A DNA stretch of 64,000 nucleotides, taken from positions 62,001-126,000 of the forward strand of contig JALVFE010000009.1 of assembly GCA_027030245.1 (NCBI GenBank). The letters run 5' to 3'. The position numbers were made by a program, and so were the translations under genes. The DNA comes from Melioribacteraceae bacterium (GTDB lineage: Bacteria > Bacteroidota > Ignavibacteria > Ignavibacteriales > Melioribacteraceae). The notes below the pieces were generated by a model. That model was given only the letters and a program-made list of their open reading frames with translations, made no database searches and was not told where the DNA came from. Each line of letters opens with the position of its first letter. Position 1 is the first letter of the stretch. Positions 8,734-35,830 of the stretch are shown piece after piece.

Positions 8734-9894
8734 ATGAAGCAAACAATCATGATAGTGTTAGTTCTGTTGACGTTTATGGGAATTGACAGTTATGTGCGGG
8801 CACAAGGCGAAGCGGCTGTACCGTTCTTATTATTAGCCCCGGATTCCAGAGCCGGAGGTTTGGGAGAATCGGGAACCGGATTAGCGGATAATTCCGCCGC
8901 AATCTTTTGGAACCCCGGCGGTTTGGCGTTTCAAAAAGGTACCGAAATTAGCATCACCCACAGTAATTGGCTTCCGCAATTTGGTCTCGACGATTTATTT
9001 TACGATTATTTAACCTATCGTCAATACATTGATGAATTGGAAGGTAATATTTCGGCAAGTATTACTTATATGAACTTTGGTGAATTCATCAGAACCGGGG
9101 AAGATTCACCCGACCCGTTGGGTACATTCAGATCTTTCGATGCGGCGTTAACTCTCGGCTATGCAACCAAAGTCCATCCCGATTGGGGACTTGGATTCAA
9201 TTTCAGAATAATTCACAGTCGTCTTTCCGATAAACCTACCGCCGGAGAAAAAGGCGAAGGGGTTGCAACATCGGTAAGTTTCGATATCGCTACAATGTGG
9301 CGACCTGCAAAACTCGAACTGCCGTTATTGGGAGATATCGGTAACAAATTCAGTTTGGGTATGAATTTAAGTAATATCGGTCCGGCAATTTATTATATCG
9401 ATCAAGCTCAAGCCGACCCGATTCCCACAAACTTCAGATTGGGAATGGCATTCAGACTGTTTGAAGACGAATATAACTCGCTTACATACACTTTGGATTT
9501 CAGCAAATTGTTGGTCGATAGACCCGACAGCACAAAACCGCGCGCAAAATTTTACGAAGCAATTTTCACCGCATGGTTCGACGATACCTTTAACGAAGAA
9601 CTGAGAGATATTGTGACCTCGATGGGATTGGAATATTGGTACGGCGGGGACGATTTCAAATTTGCTTTCCGCACAGGCTATTTTTACGAAGACCCTGCAT
9701 ACGGAAACAGAAAATTTATTACGCTCGGCGCAGGTATCCGTTACGACTTGTACGGGTTTGATTTTGGTTACATTACCACCGACGTTTTCAAAGACGGTGA
9801 AAACCACCCGCTTTCCGATACACTTAGGTTTACGTTGCTAATCGGTTGGGGCGGCGCTTATACTCATCAAAAAGGATTTCCCAGAGGTATTTGA
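8734..9894 (+). CDS. porV: PorV (LptO) outer-membrane barrel of the T9SS attachment complex
   Basis: 386 residues. PorV is a 14-strand FadL-like barrel that receives folded cargo from the SprA translocon and shuttles it to PorU. Seen: a signal peptide (about 1-23), the family N-terminal signature AVPFLLLAPDSRAGGLGESG just after it, then NSAAIFWNPGGLA and repeated amphipathic strands to the C-terminus. An unusually good Shine-Dalgarno (AGGAGG, 8721-8726) sits seven bases before the ATG, suggesting strong translation. Its place right after porU matches its function. Confidence 0.92.
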   Translation: MKQTIMIVLVLLTFMGIDSYVRAQGEAAVPFLLLAPDSRAGGLGESGTGLADNSAAIFWNPGGLAFQKGTEISITHSNWLPQFGLDDLFYDYLTYRQYIDELEGNISASITYMNFGEFIRTGEDSPDPLGTFRSFDAALTLGYATKVHPDWGLGFNFRIIHSRLSDKPTAGEKGEGVATSVSFDIATMWRPAKLELPLLGDIGNKFSLGMNLSNIGPAIYYIDQAQADPIPTNFRLGMAFRLFEDEYNSLTYTLDFSKLLVDRPDSTKPRAKFYEAIFTAWFDDTFNEELRDIVTSMGLEYWYGGDDFKFAFRTGYFYEDPAYGNRKFITLGAGIRYDLYGFDFGYITTDVFKDGENHPLSDTLRFTLLIGWGGAYTHQKGFPRGI

Positions 9895-9899
9895 AAATA

Positions 9900-12887
9900 A
9901 TGAAGAAATATATCTTCCTTTTATCGTTGATTTTCGGTTTGGGCAGTTTAGCTGCCCAAACTTTTTTACCCGAATTTAAAGTGATGCCTAAAATTTCCGT
10001 TCAACCGGACAGGACCGCTGGCAATGACACGCTCAATATCCTTGCCGTAATGGTTGAATTTCAACCCGATGATTATAATCTGACGTTCGGCGACGGAACT
10101 TTCGGTTCTATTTACACGAAAGATTACGGCACATCGATTATCGATCCGCTTCCGCACGACGAAAATTATTTCCGTAGTCATTTGGAATTTGCGAAAAGAT
10201 ATTTCCAAAAAGCTTCGAACGGGCGCGTGAAAATAAATTATTCCGTTTTGCCCCAAGTGATTACCGTTTCGCAAACGATGAGGAATTACTCTCCCAATAA
10301 AAAATCAAACGATTTTTCACCGCTTGGAAAATTCGCCGAAGAGGTATGGAACTTGGCGGATAAAACTTTCGGGAATGTGGATTTCAGCCGGTACGATTTA
10401 TTTATAATTTTCCATGCCGGAGTCGGTGGTGAAGTTTTATTGCCGGGTTCGCTCGGGAACGAAAAAGATTTACCTTCTTTGTATTTGAGCGAAAAAAATC
10501 TAAAAGAGATTTTCGGTGAAACGTTCAACGGTTTTCCGGTTAACAACGGGAATTTCAGAATTACTAATACGGTTATTTTGCCCGAAACCGAATCGAGGGA
10601 AACTTCCAGTTTCGGAGAATCTTTTTTGTACGAACTTTCGATTAACGGATTGATTGTATCCAACATTGCAAGTTACATGGGTTTGCCAGATTTATTCGAT
10701 ACTGAAACGGGACATAGCGCTATCGGTCGGTTAGGATTAATGGACGGACAATCGATTTTTGCTTACGGGGGACTTTTCCCGCCGGAACCTTCCGCTTGGG
10801 AAAAAGTATTTCTCGGTTGGGAAACGCCCGTTGTACTTGAGCCGGCTTCAGCCGAAATTAAACAAACCATTGTCAACAGATTTACCGCTTCCTTTTCGGA
10901 TACAACTCTTTTGAAAATACCCATTAACAGCACGGAATATTATTTGATTGAAAACCGTTTGAGGGATGCAAATTCTAACGGTTGTGTAATTACATACAGA
11001 AAAGGGAATGACACGGTAACGGTTACTTTTAACAAAGATGATGAACAAGGTTTTAACAACGATAACATTAGTTTGCTCGAAGGCGTTGTTTTGGATGTTG
11101 ACGAATACGATTGGGCTTTGCCGGGTAACGGTATTGTAATTTGGCATATCGACGAAAAAGTGATAAACGAAAAGCTCGCTGAAAATAAAATTAATGCAGA
11201 TAAAAACCGGCGCGGCGTTGATGTTGAGGAAGCGGACGGAATTCAAGATTTGGGGGAATTGTTTACGAATTTTCTTGGGGAAACTTCCGAAGGCGTGGCA
11301 ACGGAATTGGATTTTTGGTATAAAGGAAATAAATCGGAATTGTATGAAAACAAATTCGGTCCCGATACCAAACCGAACACAAATTCCAATGACGGAGCTA
11401 ATACTCTTTTAACGTTAAAAGATTTCTCGCCCGTTTCAACAAGAATGAGTTTTAAAGTAATTTTTGGCAATGAGAAATTCCGTTTGACAGAAAATAAAAA
11501 ACTGAACCTTTCAACAGGAAATAAATTTATTAATCTTGCCACCGGAAATTACGGTCTGCTCGTTTTAGATGATACCGTGCTGAAAATATATGGCGCAAAC
11601 GGAGAACTTGTAAAAAGCATCGACAGTTTCAGCGTTAGTAAACCGGCTAAAATCATAGATAACGGGACGGAATACTTGCTTGGTTTTTCCGGGAATAAAT
11701 TAAACATTGCCGTACTTGCAGATTCGATAGAAACTTACACTTACGTATATGAAAATAATTTTACTACGCAACCGGCTGTCATTCTTGAGAATAACGGCAA
11801 GCTTATTGTTTACGGCGGGGTAACGGGTGGTTTGGTGAAAATCGGTTTTGATGTATTAACAAAAAATTTTGAAGCGATTGAAAAATACAATGTTCAAACA
11901 AACGAAAACATTTCCGGTTTTGCCGTAAATGGAAACTATTTCGTTTTGTCTGCCGGTAACAAAATATTCGATTCGGACGGAAATGTTGTTGATTGCGGAA
12001 ATGAAATATTGCAAGTAACCCTTACGGAAAATACGGGCGGTGAATACTTGACCGTTGCTTTAACTCAAGGCAACAGAATATTTATTGTTAAAAACGGAAC
12101 TATCGGGAATGAATTTAACATAAACGCTCCTTTAGAGTTAACACATTTTGCCCTTGCCGGTATTAGTGATGACGGGAACAGCTATATTTTATATAGCGCA
12201 GGCGGTGAATTGAATGCGGTAAATTTTCAAGGGGCAACCGCAAGTAACTTCCCGTTTGGAATCAAAGATGAAGAATTTTACGGATTGCCTGCCGTAGTTG
12301 ATTTTAATAACGATAATGGTAACGAAATAATATCTTTCACCGGAAAGAATATTTACGGAATAGAAGGTAAAAGCGGAAAAACTTTTGCTCCGTTTCCCGT
12401 TTCCCTTGGCGGAAAAATTAAAGCGTTCGATATCTCCGGTAATTCAAATAATTCGTTTGAATTAGCTGTGTTGCTCGAAGATAACACTTTGTTAAAATGG
12501 GAAGGGAAGGGCGGACTTAAAACTTTATTTAAAAACTTTTACGCAAACGATGCCAATACCGGATTTGTTGCGAAGCCGGAAGCAAGAGCATTGACCGGGA
12601 CTTTCTTTCCGGAAGATAGAACTTATAATTGGCCGAACCCCGTTTACGGCAACCGGACATTTATCCGTACTTTTGTTGAGGAAAACTCTCAAGTGAAAAT
12701 TAAAATATTCGATTTGGGTGGAGACTTGGTGAAAGAAATTGAATTTAGTGCGGTGGGCGGAATGGAAAACGAAGTTGCCTGGGATGTTAGAGATGTTCAA
12801 AGTGGAGCGTATTTCGCAAGCGTGGAAGTAAAAAGTGTTTCCGGGAAAACCGCGAATAAAATCATTAAAATTGCTGTTGTTAAATAA
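9900..12887 (+). CDS. M6-like secreted protein with degenerate zinc site and T9SS sorting tail
   Basis: 995 residues from the ATG at 9900, which begins a clean signal peptide (MKKYIFLLSLIFG..LAAQ). An upstream in-frame ATG at 9846 lies inside porV and would bury the signal. The N-terminal half follows the immune-inhibitor-A/M6 metalloprotease pattern, including MGLPDLFDTETG and LGLMDGQ. Where active members have HEFGH just before GLPDLYD, this protein has Ser254-Asn-Ile-Ala-Ser258, so the zinc-binding and catalytic residues are gone. The middle is beta-propeller-like. The C-terminus (YNWPNPVYGNRTFI to IIKIAVVK) is a T9SS type-A sorting domain. Likely a cell-surface non-enzymatic protein delivered by its neighbours PorU and PorV; its exact role is unknown. 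Confidence 0.75.
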   Translation: MKKYIFLLSLIFGLGSLAAQTFLPEFKVMPKISVQPDRTAGNDTLNILAVMVEFQPDDYNLTFGDGTFGSIYTKDYGTSIIDPLPHDENYFRSHLEFAKRYFQKASNGRVKINYSVLPQVITVSQTMRNYSPNKKSNDFSPLGKFAEEVWNLADKTFGNVDFSRYDLFIIFHAGVGGEVLLPGSLGNEKDLPSLYLSEKNLKEIFGETFNGFPVNNGNFRITNTVILPETESRETSSFGESFLYELSINGLIVSNIASYMGLPDLFDTETGHSAIGRLGLMDGQSIFAYGGLFPPEPSAWEKVFLGWETPVVLEPASAEIKQTIVNRFTASFSDTTLLKIPINSTEYYLIENRLRDANSNGCVITYRKGNDTVTVTFNKDDEQGFNNDNISLLEGVVLDVDEYDWALPGNGIVIWHIDEKVINEKLAENKINADKNRRGVDVEEADGIQDLGELFTNFLGETSEGVATELDFWYKGNKSELYENKFGPDTKPNTNSNDGANTLLTLKDFSPVSTRMSFKVIFGNEKFRLTENKKLNLSTGNKFINLATGNYGLLVLDDTVLKIYGANGELVKSIDSFSVSKPAKIIDNGTEYLLGFSGNKLNIAVLADSIETYTYVYENNFTTQPAVILENNGKLIVYGGVTGGLVKIGFDVLTKNFEAIEKYNVQTNENISGFAVNGNYFVLSAGNKIFDSDGNVVDCGNEILQVTLTENTGGEYLTVALTQGNRIFIVKNGTIGNEFNINAPLELTHFALAGISDDGNSYILYSAGGELNAVNFQGATASNFPFGIKDEEFYGLPAVVDFNNDNGNEIISFTGKNIYGIEGKSGKTFAPFPVSLGGKIKAFDISGNSNNSFELAVLLEDNTLLKWEGKGGLKTLFKNFYANDANTGFVAKPEARALTGTFFPEDRTYNWPNPVYGNRTFIRTFVEENSQVKIKIFDLGGDLVKEIEFSAVGGMENEVAWDVRDVQSGAYFASVEVKSVSGKTANKIIKIAVVK

Positions 12888-21367: not shown

Positions 21368-23551
21368 ATGGATGCACCGGTTGTAAAATACGATAGCATG
21401 TTAAATTCTCTGCTGGAAACGTGCAAGAATAATCTTTCCAGCGTTAACGAAGAATTGATACGCAAGGCTTTCAGACTGAGCTATGAAGCGCATAAAAACG
21501 ACTTCAGAGCATCCGGTGAACCATATTTTATTCATCCCTACGAAGTTGCAAGAATTGTCGCCGAAGAAATGCCGTTGGATGATATTTCCGTAATTAGCGC
21601 ATTGTTGCACGATGTTGTTGAAGATACGGATATCAGTCTCGATTTTATCCATCAAGAGTTCGGAAAAGAAGTTGCGGAAATAGTGGACGGCGTAACTAAA
21701 ATAGGCGGCGTTTTCCGCGGGCAATATATTACGCAAGCCGAAAACTACCGTAAAATGCTTCTTTCAATGATTAAAGACGTGCGCGTTATTCTTGTTAAAT
21801 TTGCCGATAGACTTCACAACATGCGTACGCTTGAGTTTGTAAGTCCCCACAAACAACGTAGAATAGCTAAAGAAACATTGGAAATATATGCGCCGTTTGC
21901 CCATCGCTTCGGGTTGGCAAGAATAAAATGGGAAATGGAAGATATAGCTTTCAAATATTTGAACAGGGAAGCTTACGAAGAAATTGCGCAGAAGTTAAAA
22001 GAAACGAGGCAGGCAAGGGAAAACTACATAAATAGAATTTGCGAACCGATTTCGGAAAGATTAAAAGAACACGGCTTGAAATTCGAAATAAGCGGCAGAC
22101 CGAAACACTTTTACAGCATTTACCGGAAGATGATTAAGCAAAACAAACCGCTGGAAGATATTTACGATTTGCTTGCAATCCGTATAATCATCGAAAGCGA
22201 CGACGTAAACGAATGCTATTATGTTTTGGGAATCATAAACCAATTGTTCACTCCGATTCCCGATAGATTCAAAGATTTCATCTCCATTCCGAAAAAGAAC
22301 GGTTACCAGTCGATACATAACACGGTAATCGGTCCCGACGGCAGACTTGTGGAAATTCAAATAAGAACACGCCGGATGCACGAAGTTGCGGAAAAGGGTG
22401 TTGCGGCGCATTGGAAATACAAGGAAGATATTGTTTCCACCGATAAGGATTTGGAAGAATGGGTCAATTGGGTGCGCGATATTTTCCAAACCGCTTCCGA
22501 CGATGAAGCTTCCAAAGAATTGCTTGCAAGTTTCAAACTTAATTTATACCAGGATGAAATTTACGTTTTCACTCCTAAAGGCGATCTGAAAAGGTTACCG
22601 ATAAATTCAACTCCGGTGGATTTTGCTTTCGAAATTCACAGTCGCGTTGGTTACCATTGCATCGGAGCAAAAGTGAACGGAAAGATTGTTCCGCTTAACA
22701 CAATACTTCACAGCGGGGATCAAGTTGAAATAATCACTTCGAAAAATCAACACCCGAATAAAAGTTGGCTCCAGTTTGTTCAAACCCACAAAGCAAAATC
22801 GAACATACGCAAATACATCAAAAAAGAAGAAGCGAGAATCGTTGAAATCGGTAAACAAATTTGGGAAAGAAAGATTAAGAAACTGAAACTCAGTTTTTCG
22901 AACGAAGAGATAGGTAAACTTGCAAGAAAATTGAAATTTGCAAATCCTTCGGAATTTTTCTCAGCGATTGCGCAGGACAAAGTTAATTTGGACGAAATAT
23001 TAAACCCGCCGGCACCGGAAGAAAAACCCGAAGCCCATCAACTTGAATTTGATGATTTTGCGGAGCAAGCGAGAAAAACCGCAGGCGGGGTTTTGGTGGA
23101 AGGGGAACACAAAGGTATTGTTTACGAATATGCAAGATGCTGTAATCCGATTCCGGGCGATCCGATTATCGGATTTATTACGGTAGGGCACGGCGTTAAA
23201 ATTCACAGAAAGAATTGCAAAAATCTAATCTCGATGTCTCAAACCGAACCCAACCGTCTCATACCCGTTGAATGGCCGAAAACCAACGGAAAATATTTTG
23301 TCGCCGGCATTACGATTAAAGGCGAAGATAAACCCGGTATTCTTAAAGATTTGTCGAACAGCATTACTTCGTATAAAAATACCAACATTAAATCGGTTAA
23401 CATTAACACTACCGATTCCATGTTCGTAGGTCAAATAACCGTTTATGTTGAAAATATTGAACATTTAAACAGATTAATCGAACGGTTGAAAAAAAACCAA
23501 GGGATTTATTCCGTGGAAAGATTTGAAGCCGATTCGCGAACTTTTGTATGA
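21368..23551 (+). CDS. rel: Bifunctional (p)ppGpp synthetase/hydrolase
   Basis: 727 residues with the full long-RSH layout. The HD hydrolase domain has HPYEVARIV, LLHDVVEDTD and FADRLHNMRTLE. The synthetase domain has GRPKHFYSIYRKM, RFKDFISIPKKNGYQS and EIQIRT. A TGS domain follows at about 390-450 (IYVFTPKGDLKRLP), then a zinc-finger-like region with CCNPIPGD, and a C-terminal ACT domain (about 650-727). The intact HD motif argues for both making and degrading the alarmone. The stop overlaps ruvX by four bases. Confidence 0.96.
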   Translation: MDAPVVKYDSMLNSLLETCKNNLSSVNEELIRKAFRLSYEAHKNDFRASGEPYFIHPYEVARIVAEEMPLDDISVISALLHDVVEDTDISLDFIHQEFGKEVAEIVDGVTKIGGVFRGQYITQAENYRKMLLSMIKDVRVILVKFADRLHNMRTLEFVSPHKQRRIAKETLEIYAPFAHRFGLARIKWEMEDIAFKYLNREAYEEIAQKLKETRQARENYINRICEPISERLKEHGLKFEISGRPKHFYSIYRKMIKQNKPLEDIYDLLAIRIIIESDDVNECYYVLGIINQLFTPIPDRFKDFISIPKKNGYQSIHNTVIGPDGRLVEIQIRTRRMHEVAEKGVAAHWKYKEDIVSTDKDLEEWVNWVRDIFQTASDDEASKELLASFKLNLYQDEIYVFTPKGDLKRLPINSTPVDFAFEIHSRVGYHCIGAKVNGKIVPLNTILHSGDQVEIITSKNQHPNKSWLQFVQTHKAKSNIRKYIKKEEARIVEIGKQIWERKIKKLKLSFSNEEIGKLARKLKFANPSEFFSAIAQDKVNLDEILNPPAPEEKPEAHQLEFDDFAEQARKTAGGVLVEGEHKGIVYEYARCCNPIPGDPIIGFITVGHGVKIHRKNCKNLISMSQTEPNRLIPVEWPKTNGKYFVAGITIKGEDKPGILKDLSNSITSYKNTNIKSVNINTTDSMFVGQITVYVENIEHLNRLIERLKKNQGIYSVERFEADSRTFV

Positions 23552-23988
23552 TTTCCAACGAAGAAAAAGAAAGAATTCTCGGTATTGATTTCGGGACCGT
23601 CCGCATCGGATTGGCAATTACAGATCCTTTACGGATGTTTGCTTATCCGCTTACCACAATATCAAACGATTCCAAACTCTGGAGCAAACTGAAAGAAATT
23701 CAGAAGGAATATAAAATCAAAGAAGTTGTATTGGGTTATCCGCTGAAGGAAAACGGGGAATCTTCGGAAAGCACAATAGCTGTGGAGAAATTCAAAAACC
23801 AATTGGAAGATAAACTGAAAGTTACGGTTCATCTTATCGACGAACGGTATACATCGGAAATAGCCAAAGAAAGAATACTTGCCACAACGGTTTCGAGAAA
23901 GAAAAGACGCGATAAAAGTCTGATAGACAAACATGCCGCGGCAATCATATTAGAAGATTATTTGAACGAAAAGGGATATAAAACCTAA
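23548..23988 (+). CDS. ruvX: YqgF/RuvX-type resolvase or 16S rRNA 5'-end processing nuclease
   Basis: 146 residues, RNase H fold. The first acidic site is Asp14 in GIDFGTVRIGLA, followed by VVLGYPLKENG, the middle acidic motif IDERYTS, and the C-terminal DKHAAAIILEDYL. YqgF proteins are essential in many bacteria and have been tied to pre-16S rRNA maturation; the Holliday-junction role is less certain. ATG overlaps the rel stop (ATGA). Confidence 0.93.
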   Translation: MISNEEKERILGIDFGTVRIGLAITDPLRMFAYPLTTISNDSKLWSKLKEIQKEYKIKEVVLGYPLKENGESSESTIAVEKFKNQLEDKLKVTVHLIDERYTSEIAKERILATTVSRKKRRDKSLIDKHAAAIILEDYLNEKGYKT

Positions 23989-24070: not shown

Positions 24071-24349
24071 ATGACACTTGACGCACTTGGAATGATTGAA
24101 ACCAAAGGTTTGGTCGGTTCGATTGAAGCGGCCGACGCAATGGTAAAAGCAGCAAAAGTTGAATTAATAGGAAAAGAAGTAATCGGAGGCGGTTACGTAA
24201 CCGTTATGGTAAGAGGCGATGTAGGAGCCGTTAAAGCTGCCACAGATGCCGGTGCAGCTGCGGCGCAAAGAGTAGGTGAATTGGTTTCCGTCCACGTTAT
24301 TCCTCGTCCCCATTCGGATGTTGAATTAATTTTACCGAAACGTTCATAA
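24071..24349 (+). CDS. Bacterial microcompartment hexameric shell protein (BMC-H)
   Basis: 92 residues, one BMC domain across the whole protein: [20 protein letters not shown] at 5-24, the pore loop KEVIGGG at 35-41, and [20 protein letters not shown] at 62-81. This is close to the EutM/PduA/CsoS1 type, whose hexamers tile the shell facets and let small metabolites through a central pore lined here by Gly-Gly-Gly. A second shell gene follows 13 bases later. No signature enzyme (aldehyde dehydrogenase, diol dehydratase, glycyl-radical enzyme, RuBisCO) is within the window, so the cargo is unknown. Confidence 0.95.
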
Positions 24350-24362
24350 TTGGTAAGTTAAA

Positions 24363-24947
24363 ATGGAACTAGCGCTTGGTCTTATAGAGACCAAAGGACT
24401 TGTTGGTGCAATAGAAGCCGCCGATGCAATGGTTAAAGCGGCGGAAGTTAAACTCGTTGGTAAGGAAAAAGTAACGGGCGCTTTAATGTTGGTAAAAGTA
24501 ATCGGCGAAGTTGCTGCCGTAAAATCGGCGGTAGATGCCGGATCGGTTGCAGCACAACGTGTCGGAGAATTAGTTTCCGTTCACGTTATCCCGCGCCCCG
24601 ATGATCAAATCGATCCGCTGATCATCGAACAATTTAAAAAAGAGAAAAAGGCGTCAAAAGAAGTTAAAACTGTTGAACAACCTGCCGAACCACAACCGGA
24701 AGAATTTACGGAAACAAAAACGGAACCGGAAATTCCGCAGATGCCGGAGCCGGAAGAAAAATTACCGGACGAAACCGGAAGCGGTGAAGCAGGCGGAAAT
24801 ATTCCTCCGGAAGATGATTTGAATAAAATGAATGTTCATCAATTACGAAAACTTGCGCGGAGTTTCGAAAACTTCCCGATTCACGGAAGACAAATTTCCA
24901 AAGCTAACAGACAGCAATTGTTGGATTATTTCAAATCGATGCGCTAA
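24363..24947 (+). CDS. BMC shell protein with a C-terminal Rho-N/SAP-like extension
   Basis: 194 residues. Residues 1-80 are a BMC domain paralogous to its neighbour ([40 protein letters not shown]). The pore loop differs, with KVTGAL in place of the Gly-Gly-Gly, so pore size or charge should differ. A linker rich in Pro, Glu and Lys (about 95-150) leads to a short helical domain (about 152-194, MNVHQLRKLARSF..SKANRQQLLDYFKSM) that resembles Rho-N or SAP nucleic-acid-binding folds. Extended shell proteins such as EutK and PduK also carry non-BMC tails. The tail could bind cargo, DNA/RNA or a scaffold; this is inference. Confidence 0.88.
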   Translation: MELALGLIETKGLVGAIEAADAMVKAAEVKLVGKEKVTGALMLVKVIGEVAAVKSAVDAGSVAAQRVGELVSVHVIPRPDDQIDPLIIEQFKKEKKASKEVKTVEQPAEPQPEEFTETKTEPEIPQMPEPEEKLPDETGSGEAGGNIPPEDDLNKMNVHQLRKLARSFENFPIHGRQISKANRQQLLDYFKSMR

Positions 24948-25010: not shown

Positions 25011-25922
25011 ATGAAAAAAAAATTTACCCCCATATTTTTAATCTTCATGTTTTCCGTTCTCCTTTGGGTTTACGTATCCTTTTCGGGAGAATACACGATT
25101 AACTTAAGAGTACCGATCGAAATTAAAAACATTCCCGAGGGTTTTGCAGTTAGTTCTTATTCCGCCGATTATGTTTCGCTTAGTCTGAAAGGAAGGGGTT
25201 GGCAGCTGGCACAACATACCGTGGGGCGAAATCCAAAATTTTATATTTATTGCAAGGGAAAACAAAGACACCAATCGGTCTCCATACGGAATGAAGTGGA
25301 AAACAATAAATGGATTTCATCAACACTTCAAATTGTGGAAACATCGCCCCAAATTTTTGAATTTACAATCGAAGAAATTAAAAGCAAAAAAGTGGAAATA
25401 ATTCCCGTTATTTCGATGGTCTTTAAGCCCGGTTACGGACTTGTTTCCGATATTGAGGTAATTCCCGATTCGGTTGTTATCATCGGTCCGGAAAGCAGAG
25501 TGGAAGACGTGGATTTGGTAAAAACGGAATTGAAAATATTCGAAAATTTGGACAGACCGGTCGAGGAAGTTCTGAAACTGGAAAAAATAAACTTTGTTAA
25601 GTTCAACAGAGATGAGTGCAAAGTAAAGTTTGATGTCCAAAAAATTGTCGATAAAAATTTTGAAAATGTAACCGTCGAAACAAGAAACGTTCCGCCTTCG
25701 CAACAGCTTGTTTTGTCACCTGCAAAAATAACGGTTGTGTTACGCGGAGGAATAAAAATACTTACTAAAATTAAGGACGAAGATATCAAGGCATATGTGG
25801 AGTTTTCTCAAGCTCTCCATGATACTTTGGGTGCAATAAAACCGACGGTTATTGTTCCCGAAAAAACTTCGTTAATTGATATTAAACCACCAAGATTGGA
25901 TTATATAATTAAGAAATATTGA
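25011..25922 (+). CDS. YbbR-domain membrane-anchored protein
   Basis: 303 residues. One N-terminal membrane anchor (about 6-25, FTPIFLIFMFSVLLWVYVSF) with the LLWVYV style common in YbbR/CdaR proteins, followed by repeated YbbR-type beta domains (for example PVISMVFKPGYGLVSDIEVIPDSV at about 131-154). In Firmicutes CdaR regulates the cyclic-di-AMP synthase CdaA and is encoded next to it. No cdaA is adjacent here; tmk follows one base after the stop. Function in this organism is open. The start is 12 bases after the terminator T run, so its promoter may overlap that hairpin or lie upstream. Confidence 0.75.
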   Translation: MKKKFTPIFLIFMFSVLLWVYVSFSGEYTINLRVPIEIKNIPEGFAVSSYSADYVSLSLKGRGWQLAQHTVGRNPKFYIYCKGKQRHQSVSIRNEVENNKWISSTLQIVETSPQIFEFTIEEIKSKKVEIIPVISMVFKPGYGLVSDIEVIPDSVVIIGPESRVEDVDLVKTELKIFENLDRPVEEVLKLEKINFVKFNRDECKVKFDVQKIVDKNFENVTVETRNVPPSQQLVLSPAKITVVLRGGIKILTKIKDEDIKAYVEFSQALHDTLGAIKPTVIVPEKTSLIDIKPPRLDYIIKKY

Positions 25923-35104: not shown

Positions 35105-35830
35105 ATGGCTAAAAAGGAAGAGAAAAAGAAAACGGCAAAAGAAAAGCCTAAAGCGGAAAAAACTACTAAAAAGAAAAATACAAAAGCAGCATCGGCGAAA
35201 AAGACTGCGAAAAAAACATCGACAAAAAAATCTTCAACAGCAAAACCGGTAAAGAAAACAACTACCGCAAAAACAACGAAGACTAAAACAACAAAAACCA
35301 AAGCGACGGCTAAAAAAACTATTGGTAAAAAAACAAAAACCGCTAAAAAAGTATCCTCGCGTAAAAGCTCCGTAAGGGAAGTTGAAGTAATTTCCCCGAC
35401 GAAAAAAGTAAGGAAAATTAAAGGATACGGTAAAAAAGATTTGGCAATGTTTAAAAAAGTAATTTTGGAAAAACGCGCCGAAATACTTGACCAGCTTCAG
35501 AACCTTCGCGATCAGATGATGGATCCTACAACGGGACAGTATGTGAACGAAAACTCTCCATATTCTTTACATATGGCGGAACAAGGTACCGACGCGCAGG
35601 AAAGGGAAAAGCTTTATTTGTGGGCTCAAAGGGAAACCAAGTTTTTAAGTTATCTCGAAGACGCGTTGGCAAGAATCGAAAACGGAACATACGGAATTTG
35701 TATTGAATGTATTGACGAACCTCAAAATCTTTGTCCTACATGTCCCTTGATTCCTAAAGAACGGCTTTTAGCTGTTCCACATACTCAACATTGCGTTCAA
35801 GTTAAACAAAAAATGCAGAGGAAATTTTAA
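35105..35830 (+). CDS. TraR/DksA-family protein with a lysine-rich histone-H1-like N-terminal arm
   Basis: 241 residues. Residues 1-110 are almost only Lys, Ala, Thr and Ser in degenerate KKTxxKK repeats, like histone H1 or AlgP tails and likely to bind nucleic acid. Residues about 115-185 form the DksA coiled-coil pair (KKVILEKRAEILDQL..LSYLEDALARIENGTYG). The finger is altered: Cys199-x2-Cys202, then an inserted stretch with Cys210-x2-Cys213, then LIPKERLLAVPHTQHC with the last CxxC reading CVQV. Classic DksA binds the RNA polymerase secondary channel and works with ppGpp; rel is in this window. Whether this protein does so is not known. SD GGAGG precedes the ATG. Confidence 0.82.
   Translation: MAKKEEKKKTAKEKPKAEKTTKKKNTKAASAKKTAKKTSTKKSSTAKPVKKTTTAKTTKTKTTKTKATAKKTIGKKTKTAKKVSSRKSSVREVEVISPTKKVRKIKGYGKKDLAMFKKVILEKRAEILDQLQNLRDQMMDPTTGQYVNENSPYSLHMAEQGTDAQEREKLYLWAQRETKFLSYLEDALARIENGTYGICIECIDEPQNLCPTCPLIPKERLLAVPHTQHCVQVKQKMQRKF

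Follow-up and report, generated by a model that had tools for sequence, protein, structure and literature searches.

The gene described here encodes a microcompartment (BMC) shell protein of the BMC-H type that carries a linker and a C-terminal tail. It lies in a window of 64,000 nucleotides, by which we mean the whole stretch of DNA that was analysed. The features of the locus and of the tailed protein are listed below (window coordinates, strand, description, basis).

23548..23988, + strand: RuvX, upstream neighbour (domain scan of neighbours)
24071..24349, + strand: plain BMC-H paralogue, 13 bases upstream of the tailed gene, partner gene in shell-bearing genomes (Pfam)
24363..24947, + strand: tailed BMC-H shell protein, 194 aa, ATG start (ORF translation, Pfam, AlphaFold2)
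24372..24599, + strand: BMC (PF00936) domain, residues 4-79, with K25 and R78 (Pfam, alignment)
24468..24485, + strand: pore loop K36-V-T-G-A-L41 (alignment of BMC domains)
24609..24656, + strand: predicted helix after the BMC domain, residues 83-98 (AlphaFold2)
24657..24809, + strand: acidic Pro/Glu/Lys linker, about residues 99-149, of low predicted confidence (AlphaFold2, composition)
24801..24944, + strand: predicted C-terminal Rho-N/SAP-fold domain, residues 147-194, with basic residues R162, R166, R176, K180 and R183 (alignment, AlphaFold2, Foldseek, VIA-align)
25011..25922, + strand: YbbR-family protein, downstream neighbour that adjoins the tailed gene in other genomes, too (domain scan of neighbours)

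The N-terminal part of the protein matches PF00936 with 88.9 bits at a cut-off of 24.5 (Pfam; E 2.2e-25, residues 4-79). As expected of a BMC-H protein, it has both K25 and R78, which we take to be the inter-hexamer edge residues of the BMC domain. The 60 residues that separate the matched BMC stretch from the matched tail contain 27% Asp/Glu, 13% Lys/Arg and 13% Pro. AlphaFold2, run with 44 relatives in the alignment, returned a BMC fold, the helix at residues 83-98, a linker of low confidence that is probably disordered, and a tail with helices at residues 150-155, 158-167, 176-180 and 183-193. Block means of pLDDT were 94-98 from residue 151 onward in the full protein, and the tail modelled alone reached 95.7. 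The initial annotation had proposed a small helical domain at about residues 152-194 on a Pro/Glu/Lys-rich linker, and this is borne out by the confident helices at about residues 150-194 and by the acidic linker of low confidence.

A phmmer search with the tail as query yielded 51 ORFs among 117 loci, every one of which is also a BMC ORF; these loci had been picked by BMC similarity, and their occurrence in BMC ORFs only is thus no proof of exclusivity. After removal of identical tails 47 of the 51 were aligned, and 44 of these, excluding three without a clear Met start, made up the alignment for AlphaFold2. V158, L161, R162, A165, R176, A181 and L186 are invariant in the 47 distinct tails, Lys or Arg is found at positions 162, 166, 176 and 183 in all 47 and at position 180 in 43, and the loop NFPIKGREISKAN is strongly conserved. 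The invariant columns are common to tails of several phyla and rule out that the tail represents chance or low-complexity sequence. The net charge of the tail ranges from -1 to +6 and the linker is acidic at most loci, so that binding of nucleic acid is not compelled.

The predicted structure of the tail likely represents the helix-extended loop-helix fold of Rho-N and SAP domains (PF07498 and PF02037), with scores that stay below the curated family cut-off. When the tail model was compared with solved folds by VIA-align, the Rho N-terminal domain ranked first (Z 5.8, 1.6 Å, 42 residues), followed by TFIID chains (Z 5.3), FAN1 (Z 4.9, 1.7 Å), CDNF (Z 3.6) and FKBP3 (Z 3.5), with the histone-mRNA 3'-exonuclease 1zbh (Z 3.3) in a lower row; Z values below 8, including the 5.8 of the tail, are below the safe level, may reflect merely a common arrangement of elements and are no proof alone. 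The FAN1 stretch matched by the tail is presumably its SAP domain. Foldseek also ranked Rho first (E 2.2); of its 26 PDB matches with an E of 10 or less, not one reached 0.001, and a PDB sequence search with the tail profile gave nothing useful (best E 0.25). In a Pfam scan of the 47 single tails at E up to 1, Rho_N was the commonest of the 16 families matched (18 tails), followed by SAP (six tails). None of the 47 attained the curated Rho_N cut-off of 24.9 bits: the highest score was 23.4 bits, with 38 of 43 model positions covered, for the tail of Candidatus Formimonas warabiya, and the tail of the window protein scored 14.2 bits. The Rho-N/SAP likeness that had been proposed from the letters alone thus holds at the level of the predicted fold and is suggestive only at the level of sequence. 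A profile-profile comparison, recommended at the same time, was run by hhalign against Rho_N and was not significant (probability 2.3%, E 0.02); the one against the peripheral-subunit-binding domain (PSBD) was not significant either (4.7%, E 0.0086, 10 columns). The tail also differs from Rho in the inter-helix loop, for which the comparison of the hhalign profiles gave 33 columns in Rho and a longer loop of 38 columns in the tail. Small ORFs of 108-121 aa at loci L183-L187 have a tail-like N-terminal stretch (tail profile E 3e-4 to 2e-3) and a basic, probably helical C-terminus. They were considered as a sequence bridge to Rho_N and rejected, since the two that were scanned gave sub-threshold SAP matches only in Pfam.

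In register, the pore segment reads E-K-V-T-G-A-L in the tailed protein and E-V-I-G-G-G-Y in its plain BMC-H neighbour. The difference seen in the initial annotation (KVTGAL versus KEVIGGG) is therefore real, although those two strings were out of register. Among deduplicated single-BMC domains, whose loci were retrieved by similarity and cannot be taken as independent, Thr occupies position 38 in 41 of 70 tailed and 5 of 203 untailed domains and Gly in 7 of 70 and 171 of 203, respectively; Ala is found at position 40 in 46 of 70 tailed versus 16 of 203 untailed domains. As judged by these alignments, an altered pore is frequent among tailed proteins, mainly on the Ignavibacteria side, and the tail does not require it. 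A strict coupling of tail and pore change was rejected, as five of the six Firmicute tailed proteins have VGGGL (L049, L053, L059 and L087) or SGGGL (L112); the protein of Formimonas (L047) has VTGGL.

The tailed gene is flanked by ruvX, itself following rel/spoT, and by ybbR. Homologues of the two flanking genes occur together in the fetched stretch at 34 of 44 loci, of which six belong to genomes without detectable pentamer genes (see below), and YbbR also follows the tailed gene at five more distant loci, two of which belong to Rhodothermales. The BMC genes of the window's genome are distributed over several contigs: C9 carries the BMC-H pair, C20 a tandem BMC-T, C16 two BMC-P genes and C25 a third one. 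Scattered shell genes together with three BMC-P genes characterise the FRAG type, which is known from Ignavibacteriae according to the part of its description available (PMC8217296, Sutter et al. 2021). The layout of the genome, with scattered shell genes and a BMC-P triplet, matches this type, and the window protein is probably an accessory BMC-H of such a fragmented microcompartment. The type is further marked by shell genes that are mostly distant from known BMC enzymes; no BMC enzymes were recognised among the scanned neighbours of the shell genes on C9, C16 and C25. Upstream of the only tandem BMC-T of the genome (C20; L119:7680-8996, 9539-10090) we noticed a PduS-like protein with Nuo51, SLBB, 4Fe-4S and RnfC_N domains, which may serve the FRAG compartment as an electron conduit. 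The two BMC-P genes on C16 (L118:10702-13830) stand beside genes for a sigma-70 factor, a PIN-domain protein and the phosphopentomutase DeoB. PF06130 (PduL) had no match in 18 of 19 genomes searched, among them the window's genome and nine of ten shell-bearing ones, and so the FRAG type seems not to use PduL here. Elsewhere in the window (35105-35830, + strand) lies a gene for a protein that by eye is DksA/TraR-like and has a long Lys/Ala/Thr-rich N-terminal arm.

The distribution of the tail was determined by a profile search in a phylum sample of 395 genomes, drawn evenly out of a larger group, with up to 17 candidates scored per genome and matches of E 8e-12 or better regarded as strong. 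Strong tails were found in 76 of the 395 genomes, at one locus per genome, and the 30 of these loci that were fetched were all BMC ORFs; of the 76 genomes, five contained an additional weak match, and a weak match alone was seen in three more. The tail largely coincides with shell genes: PF00936 exceeded its cut-off in 79 genomes, 75 of them with tail, and BMC-P (PF03319) was detected in 74, of which 72 have the tail. For the window's own family, the numbers are 72 of 79 genomes for the tail and 70 of 79 for BMC-P. BMC-P occurs without a tail match in G305 and G396 (81% complete) of the 395 and, in the window's family, in G015, G022, G038, G061 and G071 (66-93% complete); G305 has seven PF00936 matches, and four BMC ORFs fetched from it lack the tail. 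PF00936 above its cut-off with neither tail nor BMC-P was found in G190, G334 and G444 (E 1e-20 to 4e-22), and G137 showed only a marginal PF00936 match (E 5.8e-4). Beyond the phylum sample, tails are present in BMC ORFs of Rhodothermales, Chlorobiales, Neomarinimicrobiota, Gemmatimonadetes and Firmicutes, as named in the record titles. The loci of the tailed genes in Desulfosporosinus and Clostridium sulfidigenes encode a choline TMA-lyase CutC that scores above its cut-off; in C. sulfidigenes the same applies to a CutC activase, an acetaldehyde dehydrogenase and a phosphate propanoyltransferase, and an EutQ-like protein stays below its own cut-off. Both operons are of the GRM1 type. The Formimonas locus looks Eut-like by eye.

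In eight genomes the tail is present without any BMC-P match (G001, G002, G003, G005, G035, G213, G298 and G271); each of these genomes is 94-100% complete, G298 being a single contig. G013 (87% complete) and G068 (75%), which also have a tail without BMC-P, were left out of this count as assembly gaps; G023 (84%) and G004 (90%, 480 contigs), in which neither was matched, were not included either; G197, with a changed tailed protein, was not counted because its genome has one BMC-P and ten PF00936 matches. The plain BMC-H is absent from the locus in G001, G003, G005 and G213, and only a 37% (G298) or 68% (G035) identical relative is found there in two others, versus 92-100% identity at the 34 shell-bearing loci that have one. 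Genome-wide, PF00936 is matched only once each in G001 and G213. The BMC domains of these proteins are only 40 (G001), 38 (G035), 31 (G003), 30 (G005), 30 (G298) and 28% (G213) identical to that of the window protein, whereas the tails are 57-64% identical in all eight genomes; for shell-bearing relatives from the family and order of the window, the values are 64-100% in the BMC domain and 54-100% in the tail. In G197 (L258), which has no plain BMC-H alongside, the values are 37% and 47%, and between the sister genomes G298 and G197 the BMC domains share 32% and the tails 70% identity. K25 is replaced in G003 and G213. Position 78 is Asn in G001, G035 and G005, Tyr in G003 and Lys in G213, and is unaligned in G298; the shell-bearing genomes G221, G406 and G325 have Gln at this position, and loss of R78 alone is therefore not diagnostic.

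Among G001, G003 and G005, the BMC domains are 45, 54 and 68% identical and the tails 61-70%, and dN was below dS in both parts alike by NG86, a rough guide here because it is near saturation. The BMC domain is thus nearly as conserved as the tail among these three genomes and seems constrained rather than simply decaying. Open frames, counted from stop to stop, of 211-412 residues are retained in the shell-less genomes except G002, in which the ORF ends at the contig end and the BMC domain is cut off. In a RelSpoT tree of 36 genomes (a gene tree with midpoint root that does not include G271, a member of another family), shell status must have changed at least four times to account for the six shell-less rows, as dictated by well-supported branches. 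The N-terminal half of the G271 protein had no BMC match in Pfam. Its interpretation as a changed BMC domain was rejected, because hhalign scored 15.8 for this half versus up to 18.0 in 40 shuffles; the 22% BMC identity of G271 consequently means little, and its tail and YbbR neighbour stand. Several of the lineages without detected BMC-P seem to have lost the compartment and to have kept the protein, whose tail is preserved and whose shell-forming portion is altered.

The linkers are otherwise variable and mostly acidic, and some of them contain a short, amphipathic-looking motif that resembles HLERLRKEALKEL, for example at L205 and L200. The pattern [LI]-x-x-[LI]-[RK]-x-[EQ]-[AI], which was composed after the linkers had been inspected, matched 15 of 42 linkers; across 200 shuffles it matched 0.13 on average and never more than 2. 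The window's linker lacks the motif; those of the shell-less G001, G213 and G298 contain it, and by eye, near-matches occur in G003 and G005.

Two tailed shell proteins of other compartments offer themselves for comparison. Loss of EutK leaves Eut BMCs mostly polar and more static, and its positively charged tail could bind nucleotides (PMC12487888); the tail of EutK has been proposed as a nucleic-acid-binding shell tail in the sections available of PMC12487888 and PMC12058022. A compartment that binds nucleic acid, regarded as unusual in the initial annotation, would thus have a precedent. The window protein does not qualify as an EutK: it scored 80.4 bits with the NCBIfam EutK model at residues 3-107, below the cut-off of 218, and PF16365, the C-terminal domain of EutK, had no match in the protein (E up to 5) or in its tail (E up to 1), where the predicted Rho-N/SAP-like domain is found instead. 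The available text of the literature compared does not mention retention of EutK after shell loss, in contrast to the tailed protein, which is kept in seemingly shell-less lineages. When PduK is lost, Pdu BMCs are found mostly at the cell poles; like the window protein, PduK is a minor tailed BMC-H with a tail proposed to face outside (PMC9132943). The extension of PduK is said to be flexible and to bear a small Cys-rich motif (PMC12058022), whereas the window protein contains no cysteine and has a predicted folded helical tail. For the FRAG type, C-terminal extensions of BMC-H of up to 200 residues are mentioned in the part of PMC8217296 available, and that part describes neither this domain nor survival without a shell. 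In the open-licence PMC literature we found no published account of a Rho-N/SAP-like tail on a microcompartment shell protein among the matches listed, which were partly judged by title.

We propose that tailed hexamers sit among plain BMC-H hexamers in the shell and that their arms would leave the concave, outward-facing side, so that the tails hang outside. The concave side of BMC proteins can harbour termini (PMC5534457, in part); we infer the outward orientation from papers on related proteins. There they would tether the compartment at many points to a ligand in the cell, most likely nucleic acid (RNA or the DNA of the nucleoid), and this multivalent anchoring would position and partition the FRAG compartments, a function reported for EutK and PduK, which have tails of other types. 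As the protein persists, with a much changed BMC domain, in lineages seemingly without a shell, the ligand or function of the tail would be independent of the shell. We assign a probability of roughly 0.45 to this reading. Retention without a shell is not explained by a pure positioning role; anchoring could be just one of two roles, or else the protein was recruited to a different task once the shell had gone. A second, organelle-independent job is possible, if rather unlikely: after loss of the shell a free, probably non-tiling hexamer with six Rho-N-like domains on long arms could serve as a multivalent nucleic-acid-binding hub, and this job would already be done in the shell-bearing relatives.

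Other roles of the tail have to be weighed against the anchor. PSBD and LEM domains bind proteins, and a helix-extended loop-helix of this kind could recruit an enzyme or a housekeeping protein to the hexamer without any nucleic acid. The strongly conserved loop and the modest net charge of the tail agree with such an adaptor, the hhalign score for PSBD was slightly higher than that for Rho_N (over 10 columns only and not significant), and a cellular partner protein would fit retention without a shell. Lower rows of the structure comparison also include CDNF and pyrin domains, which to our knowledge are not nucleic-acid binders. The top-ranked solved folds, however, are Rho, TFIID and FAN1, and E3_binding (PSBD) is not one of the 16 families that the Pfam scan of the tails gave; we consider an adaptor doubtful, though conceivable.

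Tuning of shell assembly (curvature, size or stoichiometry) would require the shell-less copies to be relics. C-terminal elongations such as those of CmcC and CmcE alter the particle size in GRM2 (PMC6971018, in part), and the tail is almost always accompanied by a shell. On the other hand, the shell-less tails are as similar to the window's as are tails of shell-bearing relatives, whole genes retain open frames of the length given above, and at least four lineages show retention, which makes this role improbable. Similarly improbable is a bifunctional regulator with RNA or DNA from the operon that encodes it (rel-ruvX-BMC-ybbR-tmk) as its target, through which shell assembly would feed back on expression. 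The predicted Rho-N fold and the recurrent ruvX and ybbR neighbours, also in shell-less genomes, would suit a regulator, but the Firmicute tailed genes are located in GRM1 and Eut-like operons.

We thus favour the outward anchor. Tails of the EutK and PduK type are a lead to the positioning and inheritance of microcompartments other than carboxysomes, and the present tail is of a different kind and widespread. Its conserved basic positions make the proposal directly testable, and the shell-less lineages represent natural experiments that separate the role of the tail from that of the shell. Judging by these lineages, a BMC protein may be retained to do work outside any compartment.
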